A stretch of DNA of 64,000 nucleotides. Source: Halomarina ordinaria (lineage in GTDB: Archaea > Halobacteriota > Halobacteria > Halobacteriales > Haloarculaceae). A model generated the notes under the pieces. It saw only the letters and a program-made list of their open reading frames with translations. It was not told the DNA's origin and did no database searches. The stretch is taken from the NCBI RefSeq assembly GCF_030553305.1, contig NZ_JARRAH010000001.1, forward strand, positions 744,001-808,000. The letters are read 5' to 3'. The stretch's first letter is position 1; each line of letters opens with the position of its first letter. This document shows, one piece after another, positions 47,119-51,143 of this stretch. The position numbers were made by a program, and so were the translations under genes.

Positions 47119-50100
47119 ATGCAACGCAGGATATCGATTCTCGTCCTCGTAGTGAGCCTGACGGTCACGCCGGTCGCTGGAACGTCTACCGACAGAGCGC
47201 CGCTCGCAGACGCCGGTCTCGACCAGCAGGTCGAACGCGGGACGACTGTCGTCCTCGACGCGACCGGGTCGCGCGACCCGGGCGGCGAGATAGCGAGCTA
47301 CGAGTGGTGGATCCGAACGCCGACCGACGAGACGACGCGGCCGCGAGACCCCACGACGCCACGACCGACCTTCGAGGCGCGGTCGGTGGGTCGCTACGAG
47401 GTGACCGTCGTCGTGACCGACGACGCCGGTAACGAGGCCTCTGACACGCTCTACGTCGACGTCGAACGGGGCGAGGAATCACCGGCCGACCCGTCGCCTC
47501 CAGCGGAATCGCCCGACGACTCGCCTGACCCGCTCGCGTCGGAACGGACGCCGACGCTCGACGGTCCGACGCTCGTCACCGGTGGTCGACCGCTCTCGGC
47601 CACGTACACGCTCGAACTGGACGGCCCGTCGCGCCACGTCGACGCGGTTCGCTGGGTCGCCAACGGCGACGACGACGGATCTGACCAGCGATATAGCAAG
47701 AACTGGGCGCCCGGCGAGCACCGTCTCCGCGCCGAGGTGACGTACACCGACGGATCGACGACGACCGCACGATTCCCCGACGGGTCGACGGAGGTCGTCG
47801 CCGACCCCGAACCGAGGGTCTCTTTCGACCGGCTCACGCACGACGGCGACCTGACGGGCGAGGTGACCGCGAGCGACGCCTTCGGTAACCTCGACCGGGT
47901 TCACGTGCGAATCGGTGACACCGAGGGTCGGACAGTGACGGTCGACGACGGGGAGGGTCGAGAGCGAAACGGCGTGACGCGCTCGGTCGCGTTCGAACGA
48001 GCCGATGTCGACGCGAGTGCGAATACCACGGTGACCGCGACCGCTGTGGACGCCCGTGGCCAGACCGCGACCGCGACGCGGACACTCGGTTCGCGCGAGG
48101 CACCGCGCCTCCTCTCGGCCGAGTTCGTCAACGGGCCCGTGGACTCGTACCACGAGCGTATCGACGCCGGGCGATACACGGCACACCACGTCACGAAGGT
48201 CGACCTGAACGGGACGGACCCGGAGACGGTGAAGGTGCGGCAGATCCCCGGTTCACCGGATGACGTATTACGTGTAAGCCAGAAAAAACGAGTCGTCGAT
48301 GGGAATACGTTGACTGTGCACACCTATTGGGCAGCGTACAAACCAGGGGATAATCCACACTATACGATCACTACCCGTTTGGATGTTGAAAGAGCGGCAA
48401 GTGCTTCACGGGTAGTAAACGACGATTTCGAGGTCGAACCGAGCAAACCAGAACTCCGGCTTCGGATGCTCAACGACGGAACTGACGGGGTGGATATGAC
48501 CGAACGAATCGAGATCGATGCGAGTGGGTCGTTCGACCCAGATGGGAGCGATCTTACCTATACGTGGAAGATGGGTGCGAATCCACACCCTGATGACAAC
48601 TCAACCGCCTACCTTTCGTACTGGGATGCAGGGAAGTTGGTCCTCGAGGACGAACAGGATCAAGTAACGACTCAAACGTGGAGTGCGCTCCGCGGGTTCG
48701 TCCCCGAAATCGACGATTCCAAGACCGACGTCTGGCCGGTCTATCACGAGACTGGGACCACTCCGACGATGTATCCCATATCGTCGCAACCGTACTCGTC
48801 GGCCCAGACGCTCCGGGTCCGCGTCCGGACCGAGCCGATCCACTTCCGCCGTGAGACGAGTTCCGTTTCGGTCGGGGCGGAACTCGACGGTTCTGCGGGT
48901 GAAATAGTGCGCTGGAACGAGGTCCCGTACACGCCTATCGAGACGAGACCGGGCGACGCCGTCGGTGGTCGGAACTCGGTGTACTACGAGGGCGTCATCG
49001 AACTCGAGGCGGCCGCGTTGGCGAGCGAGGACCTCCGGCCGACGCTTACCCTCTACAACGAAGAGCAACCTGACTTCGCTCGCGAACAGTACGACCTCCC
49101 GACGGTTCGTGTGCAGTCACTCAACGAAACCCGTCACGAAGACCTCGAGGTCTCGGACGTGAGCTACGCCATCGAGCGACCGGTCACTGAACGGATGACC
49201 GTCGAGGACCGGGAACGACTCCAGCGACTGCGCTCGTACGGATTCACCGTCGTGAGCGCGTCGTCCAGGGTCACGGGCTACGAGATGGAACGACGAGAGA
49301 AAGTGCGCGACGCGGAGTACGAGACCTCGAAACGACTCTTCGACCGCCGCTGGCAGCGCCGGCTCTTCATCGACGAGAACGACGGTTGGGGCGTGAGCGG
49401 AACGGAGACGACGCGCCACCGTGAGCCCCGAACCGAGACGGAGTGGCGGTCGGCCCGCGGCGAGGACTACACCGGCGAGACGCGGCGCGTACTCGTCTCT
49501 CCCGCTCGTTACCTCACCGAACGTCAGTACCGATACTGGACGACAGAGACGTACGAGCGCGAAGTGGAGAGCAGACAATGCCTCTGGGGAGGACACTGCT
49601 ACACGGTCACGCGGACCGAAGAGCGGACCCGGCGCGTGAGTAAAACGTACTGGTCGCTCAGTGCACGCTCCTCCTCCCACAGTCCCACTGGACGAACCCG
49701 ACAGCACAAGATTCGCTCCGCGGAGTACGAGACCCAGTACGAACACCGTTACACGACGTGGGAAACGGTCACCGAGCGGCGCTACGAGGCGACGAAGCGA
49801 GAACTCGTCAGCCCCGCGGTGTACGAGTGGCGCGACTACCGGACCGTAGCGGACAGCCAGACCGCCTGGCGACTCGCGAAGGCAGACGACATCAGAATCG
49901 GAGCCGAGCGGCGAAAACCCACCTGGGAAGTCCTGCGAGAGGGGACGAAGACGGTCGAGCGTCCCGCCTACGAGGACGCCGGAAACGTGACGTCCACGCA
50001 TGCGACGGTCACGGGCACGACGGTTCGTTACACTACCCAAGACGGGGAGGTCCGACGTCGCGTCGTCGGCCCCTTCGAGACGGAGTTCAGCGGCGCTGGC

Positions 50101-50151
50101 GTAGTGAACGAGGAGTCCATACTTAGAGAGGTGAGGGAGGAAGAAGATTAG
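47119..50151 (+). CDS. Secreted PKD-domain protein with basic C-terminal repeat region
   Basis: A 1,010-residue exported protein. Residues 1-22 (MQRRISILVLVVSLTVTPVA) are a signal peptide. A PKD domain follows (about 27-115, with VVLDATGSRDPGGEIASYEW), then beta-rich segments and a second PKD-like block (about 440-490, EIDASGSFDPDGSDLTYTW). From about residue 700 the protein becomes rich in Arg, Tyr, Glu and Trp, with repeated pieces: DAEYETSKR near 731 and SAEYETQYE near 870; RVLVSPARY near 792 and RELVSPAVY near 896. Its only two Cys, 821 and 827 (QCLWGGHCY), could form a disulfide loop. There is no C-terminal anchor. Function unknown; surface adhesion or binding is plausible. Confidence 0.8.
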   Translation: MQRRISILVLVVSLTVTPVAGTSTDRAPLADAGLDQQVERGTTVVLDATGSRDPGGEIASYEWWIRTPTDETTRPRDPTTPRPTFEARSVGRYEVTVVVTDDAGNEASDTLYVDVERGEESPADPSPPAESPDDSPDPLASERTPTLDGPTLVTGGRPLSATYTLELDGPSRHVDAVRWVANGDDDGSDQRYSKNWAPGEHRLRAEVTYTDGSTTTARFPDGSTEVVADPEPRVSFDRLTHDGDLTGEVTASDAFGNLDRVHVRIGDTEGRTVTVDDGEGRERNGVTRSVAFERADVDASANTTVTATAVDARGQTATATRTLGSREAPRLLSAEFVNGPVDSYHERIDAGRYTAHHVTKVDLNGTDPETVKVRQIPGSPDDVLRVSQKKRVVDGNTLTVHTYWAAYKPGDNPHYTITTRLDVERAASASRVVNDDFEVEPSKPELRLRMLNDGTDGVDMTERIEIDASGSFDPDGSDLTYTWKMGANPHPDDNSTAYLSYWDAGKLVLEDEQDQVTTQTWSALRGFVPEIDDSKTDVWPVYHETGTTPTMYPISSQPYSSAQTLRVRVRTEPIHFRRETSSVSVGAELDGSAGEIVRWNEVPYTPIETRPGDAVGGRNSVYYEGVIELEAAALASEDLRPTLTLYNEEQPDFAREQYDLPTVRVQSLNETRHEDLEVSDVSYAIERPVTERMTVEDRERLQRLRSYGFTVVSASSRVTGYEMERREKVRDAEYETSKRLFDRRWQRRLFIDENDGWGVSGTETTRHREPRTETEWRSARGEDYTGETRRVLVSPARYLTERQYRYWTTETYEREVESRQCLWGGHCYTVTRTEERTRRVSKTYWSLSARSSSHSPTGRTRQHKIRSAEYETQYEHRYTTWETVTERRYEATKRELVSPAVYEWRDYRTVADSQTAWRLAKADDIRIGAERRKPTWEVLREGTKTVERPAYEDAGNVTSTHATVTGTTVRYTTQDGEVRRRVVGPFETEFSGAGVVNEESILREVREEED

Positions 50152-50198
50152 ACCAAAAACAATATGTGCAGAAATATAAAACACACAAAAAGAAGAAT

Positions 50199-51143
50199 AT
50201 GACGGGCGCTGTTAGAATCGTCTTGGTGTGTATTCTTTGCATGACCAGTATGGCACCTGCCACGGTGGTCGCGGCTGCTACCGGAAGTGACCTTTCAGAC
50301 AATGTCGAAGAACGATCGTTGTCGGGGGAATTTGGCGTAGAGTATCAGATCAAATTCGATGAGAAGACACACATACTGCAGGTGGAGGGTGAGAATACTG
50401 CAAGCAAGGAACGGGATTCTATCTATTCTATCAGTGTCGATGGGTCTCGATTAGAACGAGAAGACATTCCACTGACGCCGGGAGAGACACACCGTCGAGA
50501 GTTCCCTCTGCGATCTACGCTTGATGTGACTCGGGACGAGCACACGGTTAAAATCTCTACGTTCGGGGATACAACACAGTACAACTTCACTCACGAAATC
50601 GACCCCGAGAACCCGAACGGGGTCGAGGTCCCACGGATTACGGAGGCCAGCGTCGGGAACGCGGTCGTCGACGGGAAGCAGTCGGCAGTCGTGAACGTGA
50701 CCGTCGAGAACCCGTCGAGGCAGACCTACCCGACGAAGTTGATGGTTCACACAGAGGGAACTGATGGGAGTTACTATCCCGCGATCGCCAGTCCAGGCGA
50801 GAACGAGACAATCACCGTCGAACTACTCGACGCGCCCGACGCCGAAATCGTCGGCCAAGCGCGACTCTACACCGGCGATTTCGAGGACCCGGAAGGAGAA
50901 CTCGATCAGGTCGGGTTCGTCGGGCGGGTTGACGGCGAGACCGAACAGTGGAACGAGTCGTTCGAACCCGTCGCGCCACCCTGGAGCGACGACCCGTACC
51001 AGTACCGCAACGCCTCCGCCGGCGATTCGCCGGGGCTCGCCGAACAGGTCAGCGGCGGGGTCGAACTCGGTGGCGTGCCGGTCGCCTACCTGGTCGGTGG
51101 TGCGGTGGTCGCCGCGGGCATCGTCGGCCTCGTCAGGAGATAG
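50199..51143 (+). CDS. Secreted membrane-anchored partner protein, unknown function
   Basis: A 314-residue protein with an N-terminal signal (VLVCILCMTSMAPATVVAAA), a beta-rich extracellular part (about 35-285; SVGNAVVDGKQSAVVNVTVE resembles a CARDB-like strand pattern) and a C-terminal hydrophobic anchor, VPVAYLVGGAVVAAGIVGLV, followed by RR. It starts 47 bases after the PKD gene stop; a TATA-like aatataaa 19-26 bases upstream may give it its own transcript. The 5' half is G+C-poor compared with the 3' half, as in parts of the PKD gene. It probably tethers or helps the PKD protein at the surface. Confidence 0.75.
   Translation: MTGAVRIVLVCILCMTSMAPATVVAAATGSDLSDNVEERSLSGEFGVEYQIKFDEKTHILQVEGENTASKERDSIYSISVDGSRLEREDIPLTPGETHRREFPLRSTLDVTRDEHTVKISTFGDTTQYNFTHEIDPENPNGVEVPRITEASVGNAVVDGKQSAVVNVTVENPSRQTYPTKLMVHTEGTDGSYYPAIASPGENETITVELLDAPDAEIVGQARLYTGDFEDPEGELDQVGFVGRVDGETEQWNESFEPVAPPWSDDPYQYRNASAGDSPGLAEQVSGGVELGGVPVAYLVGGAVVAAGIVGLVRR

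Follow-up and report, generated by a model that had tools for sequence, protein, structure and literature searches.

An undescribed gene pair of Halobacteria encoding a secreted PKD and beta-finger protein and its putative membrane-anchored partner

In Sulfolobales SlaA and SlaB form the lattice of the surface layer (S-layer) itself, a beta-rich secreted protein being held by a beta-sandwich membrane protein; SlaB has three domains of the beta-sandwich type, and its C-terminal helix is a long coiled coil (PMC10903991). We describe here a pair of genes, P1 and P2, from Halomarina ordinaria, which lies in a 64,000-nucleotide stretch of contig NZ_JARRAH010000001.1 (assembly GCF_030553305.1, positions 744,001 to 808,000 of the forward strand). 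The whole of this stretch is called the window, and all coordinates are given in its numbering. The two genes are as follows:

47119..50151, plus strand: P1, open reading frame (ORF) of 1010 amino acids (aa), secreted PKD and beta-finger protein, conserved in 49 of the 391 Halobacteria genomes searched
50166..51143, plus strand: P2, ORF of 325 aa, putative membrane-anchored partner, probable start at ATG 50199

Compared by layout, the pair resembles SlaA/SlaB in that P1 is large, secreted, beta-rich and anchorless and P2 is a smaller, C-terminally anchored beta-sandwich protein. However, the model of P2 has two beta-sandwich regions with a helix of 18 residues and lacks the third domain and the long coiled coil of SlaB, and P1/P2 is present in just 12.5% of the sampled Halobacteria, which argues against a lattice role. 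Because of these missing parts and the minority distribution we did not file the pair with SlaA/SlaB, to which its layout makes it analogous without making it a member. P1 also shares with the PKD surface proteins (PF18911, PF22352, PF00801) a domain at residues 26-115 scoring above the Pfam cut-offs, but this domain spans only some 9% of the protein, whose conserved middle region and C-terminal domain (CTD) belong to no family, and PKD alone is neutral as to function. We found no paper describing the pair, and PMC10067837, which does refer to Halomarina, speaks of neither PKD nor surface proteins. We argue that P1 and P2 likely belong together as the two parts of a single haloarchaeal cell-surface assembly, and we place the probability of this at roughly 0.55.

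The association of the two genes was examined with three separate profiles, made from the P1 middle region, the CTD and P2, which were searched in 391 Halobacteria genomes. The CTD profile matched 49 of them (12.5%), spread over 17 of 86 genera; the P2 profile returned the identical 49 genomes and nine further matches with E 3e-4 or worse; and the P1-middle profile recovered the same 49 strongly, one more genome (G336) partially (E 1e-27), and some weak matches which are probably PKD noise. Both P1 and P2 are present in all eight Halomarina genomes. At each of the 29 loci examined in full P2 follows P1 immediately and in the same orientation, and in several the start and stop codons overlap by 4 nucleotides. 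A first-pass annotation of this DNA had treated the two genes as a module, and this co-occurrence and adjacency bear it out; nor is P1 widespread without its neighbour, the lone exception being the truncated P1 of G336. There, at the conserved syntenic site (L107:6460-7707), flanked by 2-oxoacid:ferredoxin oxidoreductase genes on one side and Mrp/MoaA on the other, P1 is of about 416 codons, the CTD is lost and P2 is gone, which looks like decay of the entire module. In another genome (G227) P2 is interrupted by a stop or frameshift, and in Halomarina rubra (L019 / L033) P1 is split over two overlapping frames, owing to a frameshift or a sequencing error. An extra P2-like gene was noticed at the end of contig C30 of G308 (L108:6029-6802), possibly the second copy of a pair cut by the assembly; as it stands at a contig end, its P1 may simply be missing.

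Outside Halobacteria no credible homologue was found in 393 genomes of the phylum, the one match (E 1.9e-4) containing stops. The neighbours of the pair, named from our reading of the sequences, are housekeeping genes which differ between genera, and the synteny is common to several families, because of which the pair would seem to be an ancient chromosomal module, often lost and not mobile; it is apparently vertically inherited. A conserved third gene was considered and rejected, since the neighbours are housekeeping genes: none co-travels with the pair at the neighbourhoods compared, and no transporter or secretion gene is linked to it. A viral or mobile origin was likewise rejected, there being no homologue on a viral contig and no plasmid match, no PADLOC or PHROGs match for P1, no PADLOC match and PHROGs matches of E 0.25 at best for P2, and a chromosomal position common to several families. 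That P1 and P2 are a functional pair is made very likely by their joint inheritance and loss, their adjacency and the overlap of start and stop codons.

Outside the CTD, the following parts of the two proteins were recognized:

47119..47184, plus strand: signal peptide of P1, about residues 1-22 (Kyte-Doolittle scan)
47194..47463, plus strand: PKD domain of P1, residues 26-115 (Pfam PF18911 / PF22352 / PF00801)
47551..48468, plus strand: middle region of P1, residues 145-450, without family match (alignment of 29 homologues)
48508..48570, plus strand: second, weak PKD-like stretch of P1, residues 464-484 (partial Pfam match), followed by SFDPDGSDLTYTW
50304..50969, plus strand: two predicted beta-sandwich (immunoglobulin-like) domains of P2, residues 36-131 and 146-257 counted from the Met at 50199 (AlphaFold2, AF2; Foldseek)
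51084..51137, plus strand: C-terminal membrane helix of P2, then a basic end (hydropathy; AF2 helix 296-313; 29 of 29 homologues)

The signal peptide is the sole hydrophobic segment of P1 in the Kyte-Doolittle scan, and no anchor is present. The PKD domain was matched with a best Pfam E of 2.4e-16, its 44 bits for PF18911 and 59.9 bits for PF22352 both passing the gathering score of 27 set for each family, and the middle region holds the highly conserved stretch SAEFVNGPVDSYHERIDAGRYTAHHVTKVDLNG (residues 333-365) in the 29-homologue alignment. In the first PKD region of many non-Halomarina P1 proteins we also noticed a CxxC motif, which Halomarina P1 does not have. For P2, whose start is more likely the ATG at 50199 because the Met there (Met12) is invariant in the P2 alignment, the hydropathy scan gave an N-terminal and a C-terminal hydrophobic segment, and in each of the 29 homologues a hydrophobic stretch and then a short, mostly basic tail close the sequence. 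The AF2 model of P2 (pLDDT, the predicted local distance difference test, 70; pTM, the predicted template modelling score, 0.51) consists of a signal helix, two beta-sandwich regions and a C-terminal helix. The first-pass annotation had described P1 as exported, PKD-bearing and without an anchor of its own, and the next gene as encoding an exported protein with a C-terminal anchor; both descriptions hold, with one Pfam PKD domain and a weak second in P1. Given these topologies, a secreted protein with a membrane anchor is the simplest arrangement.

The same P2 domains invite another explanation, in which P1 and P2 would be membrane cargo binders or chaperones, for glycan or solute capture or as an assembly factor, and the finger of the CTD described below would be merely a structural clamp. 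In Foldseek P2 matched RbmA, GH2 and the C-terminal beta-barrels of transglutaminases, with E-values of about 1e-5 to 1e-4 but low TM-scores over the whole fold, so that its domains resemble the tandem beta-sandwich modules of enzymes and of the biofilm-matrix protein RbmA, and one P2 homologue gave a weak, sub-threshold CBM_6 match (E 0.0016). The likeness to RbmA and the transglutaminase barrels is one of beta-sandwich topology at about 10% sequence identity, and library searches found no enzyme domain in P1 or P2. Against cargo handling stand the neighbourhoods, where the pair has no constant third companion and no linked gene for transport or secretion, and where the housekeeping neighbours change from genus to genus. 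We consider this explanation unlikely, though it retains appreciable weight beside a joint surface assembly.

The C-terminal part of P1 is composed of long beta-strands and four related repeats:

49144..50028, plus strand: CTD of P1, residues 676-970 (library searches; AF2; repeat comparison)
49231..49374, plus strand: repeat 1, residues 705-752 (hhalign to repeat 4, E 3e-6)
49408..49554, plus strand: repeat 2, residues 764-812, W..TG.TRRV...PA.Y.TERQY.Y (hhalign to repeat 3, E 3.6e-13)
49630..49764, plus strand: repeat 3, residues 838-882 (hhalign)
49756..49893, plus strand: repeat 4, residues 880-925 (hhalign)

Searches with this region gave no sequence match in Pfam, NCBIfam, PHROG or PDB; similar results were obtained with the CTDs of six diverse P1 homologues in the sequence libraries, and the CTD model, compared with the PDB by Foldseek, had no global fold match. 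The model, built on six sequences, is mostly beta with a mean pLDDT of 82. The four related units emerged from profile-profile comparison, in which repeats 2 and 3 and repeats 1 and 4 matched each other with the E-values listed, against 0.005 or worse for other P1 regions compared likewise. The first-pass annotation had named a strong match of this region to a known domain as something that would refute it, and no catalogued domain was matched; it had also pointed to repeated AEYET and LVSPA pieces, and in this it was right, the repeats lying above chance.

It had also called the CTD basic among acidic neighbours, which is correct for the isoelectric point (pI): residues 676-970 have a pI of 9.3, with 16% Arg, 6% Tyr and 3% Trp, against a median of 4.6 for 42 likely proteins of the window, chosen by a simple composition score, of which one is above 7. 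The excess charge, on the other hand, is small, the net charge being merely +7 over 295 residues because Glu is abundant too, and +1 with the tail counted. From this basicity it had been proposed that the CTD binds a polyanion, be it DNA, an acidic glycan or an acidic cell surface, while tethered by P2. The pI and Arg content of the CTD in this genome speak for such a reading, but across 29 relatives the net charge varies between +27 and -20, about half of them being negative and many having a pI of 5-6, and even here the surplus is slight. The charge not being conserved, we rejected a conserved basic polyanion-binding CTD, and the polyanion reading as a whole appears improbable. As far as the aligned sequences tell, what is conserved in the CTD is its shape, that is the predicted beta-repeat and hairpin anatomy, and not its charge.

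The most distinctive part of this anatomy is a long hairpin between repeats 2 and 3:

49507..49656, plus strand: predicted beta-hairpin finger, residues 797-846 (symmetric arm lengths, two-faced alternation, AF2 strands)
49579-49581, plus strand: finger-tip Cys821 (P1 sequence)
49597-49599, plus strand: finger-tip Cys827 (P1 sequence)

P1 holds exactly these two Cys residues, as had been counted before. AF2 predicts one strand over 797-822 and another over 826-846, the two Cys lying where the chain turns. Of 29 homologues, 24 have such a pair between repeats 2 and 3, its members 4 or 5 residues apart. Most of the non-Halomarina P1 proteins (among L065-L084) end in a further Cys pair close to the C-terminus, a pair that Halomarina P1 does not have. 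The arms, one running from TG-x-x-R in repeat 2 up to the leading Cys at the tip and the other from the trailing Cys to YW in repeat 3, are 31/17, 33/19, 45/31 or 47/33 residues long, so that they differ by 14 except in a few proteins (46/33) which are one residue short upstream of the arm. Between these length classes both arms change together by 2, 12, 14 or 16 residues, always an even number, and on a tree built without the hairpin-arm columns we counted about six changes of arm class in total, about four of them among the Cys-bearing forms. In the long arms the even positions from the Cys are 50-62% Ser/Thr and 2-4% aliphatic, and the odd positions 4-9% Ser/Thr, 22-29% aliphatic and 14-29% aromatic, with identical parity on both arms. 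Symmetric even steps together with two-residue alternation are the pattern expected of a disulfide-closed antiparallel beta-hairpin, and the tip is probably capped by a disulfide.

In its top Foldseek matches in the PDB the CTD, made of long hairpins as it is, was paired with beta-barrel pores, which have long two-stranded stem hairpins and a local 3Di similarity to it, and P1 oligomers might accordingly be imagined to insert the hairpin as a stem and to form a beta-barrel pore or translocation tube. But the TM-scores were 0.05-0.10 with a root-mean-square deviation above 40 A and no sequence similarity, the resemblance being a local one of long hairpins, and both arm faces carry 23-43% charged residues, the Thr face being 2-6% aliphatic, which misfits a lipid-facing surface. 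The pore-forming membrane stem was rejected on these grounds, and we hold it to be very improbable. That the arms form an alpha-helical (coiled-coil) hairpin is hardly credible, for although symmetric length change by itself fits helix or strand, the two-residue alternation, the Thr/Tyr/Val-rich composition, the even steps and the AF2 strands in the arms all speak for beta.

Some P1 proteins dispense with the Cys-bearing hairpin. In L065 and L066 the insert still resembles a hairpin but has no Cys and turns at Pro-Asp-Gly, and in L082-L084 the hairpin is altogether absent; P2 is kept in all of them. As P2 persists beside a P1 without hairpin, its binding site is presumably not the hairpin tip. 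Returning to P1 and P2 as parts of one surface assembly, P2 would sit in the membrane and hold P1 by its rod or repeat core, and P1 would project outward as a rod displaying the finger. The disulfide-closed hairpin would act as a stiff, polar finger, one face lined with Thr and the other hydrophobic, aromatic and charged, and this second face would most likely pack on the finger of another P1 copy or on a surface ligand. Architectures in which a rod displays a finger usually serve adhesion, cell-cell contact or S-layer attachment, and for this reason we favour these as the likeliest roles of the resulting spike. More tentatively, P1 copies held by P2 could pack their hydrophobic and aromatic hairpin faces together into a rigid polar needle, coated with Thr outside and tuned in length by equal, even insertions and deletions in both strands, which would be a new class of archaeal spike; we regard this as a possible but speculative elaboration.

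Several points weigh against a joint surface assembly. Co-inheritance is not proof of physical contact between P1 and P2. About 87% of the sampled genomes do without the pair, which is thus not a core component of the envelope. The pTM of the CTD model is 0.35, which makes its overall shape unreliable and leaves strand pairing believable locally, and cross-strand charge pairing, used as a test of hairpin register, gave no signal above shuffles (p 0.25 for long arms, 0.44 for short). Our results single out no particular ligand for the finger, and no expression, localization or phenotype data for P1 or P2 were found.

Although the kind of system is familiar, the CTD is a new domain family and the gene pair has not been described before. 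The module is an uncatalogued two-gene surface pair of Halobacteria whose CTD has no counterpart among the families and folds of the libraries searched, and it overturns no established view. The pair offers a clean test case for an archaeal secreted protein anchored via a partner rather than by a C-terminal anchor of its own, and the finger one for a long beta-hairpin that changes its length while keeping its register.

Upstream of P1 a putative promoter element was read from the sequence:

47079..47086, plus strand: TATA-like box TTTATAAG, 33 nucleotides 5' of the P1 start codon

Its position fits an archaeal promoter. Immediately 5' of the P1 start codon, at 47103-47116, stands CCCTCGCAAGAGGG, whose 5-bp arms form a perfect inverted repeat around a GCAA loop, and given the TATA-like box at 47079 the transcript may start inside this repeat. 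Rfam matched no RNA element at the P1/P2 locus. A small plus-strand ORF, 46628-47053, which opens MPCCLCDDPD, lies just 5' of P1. On the other side of the pair a 71-aa ORF beginning MTVEEDGDRAALLREIAEEVHDGSSEASQLAAILYRVSDLYDPDEETSPQEIYLN (51153-51368, minus strand) adjoins an Mrp/NBP35-like gene and is kept there in several other genera.

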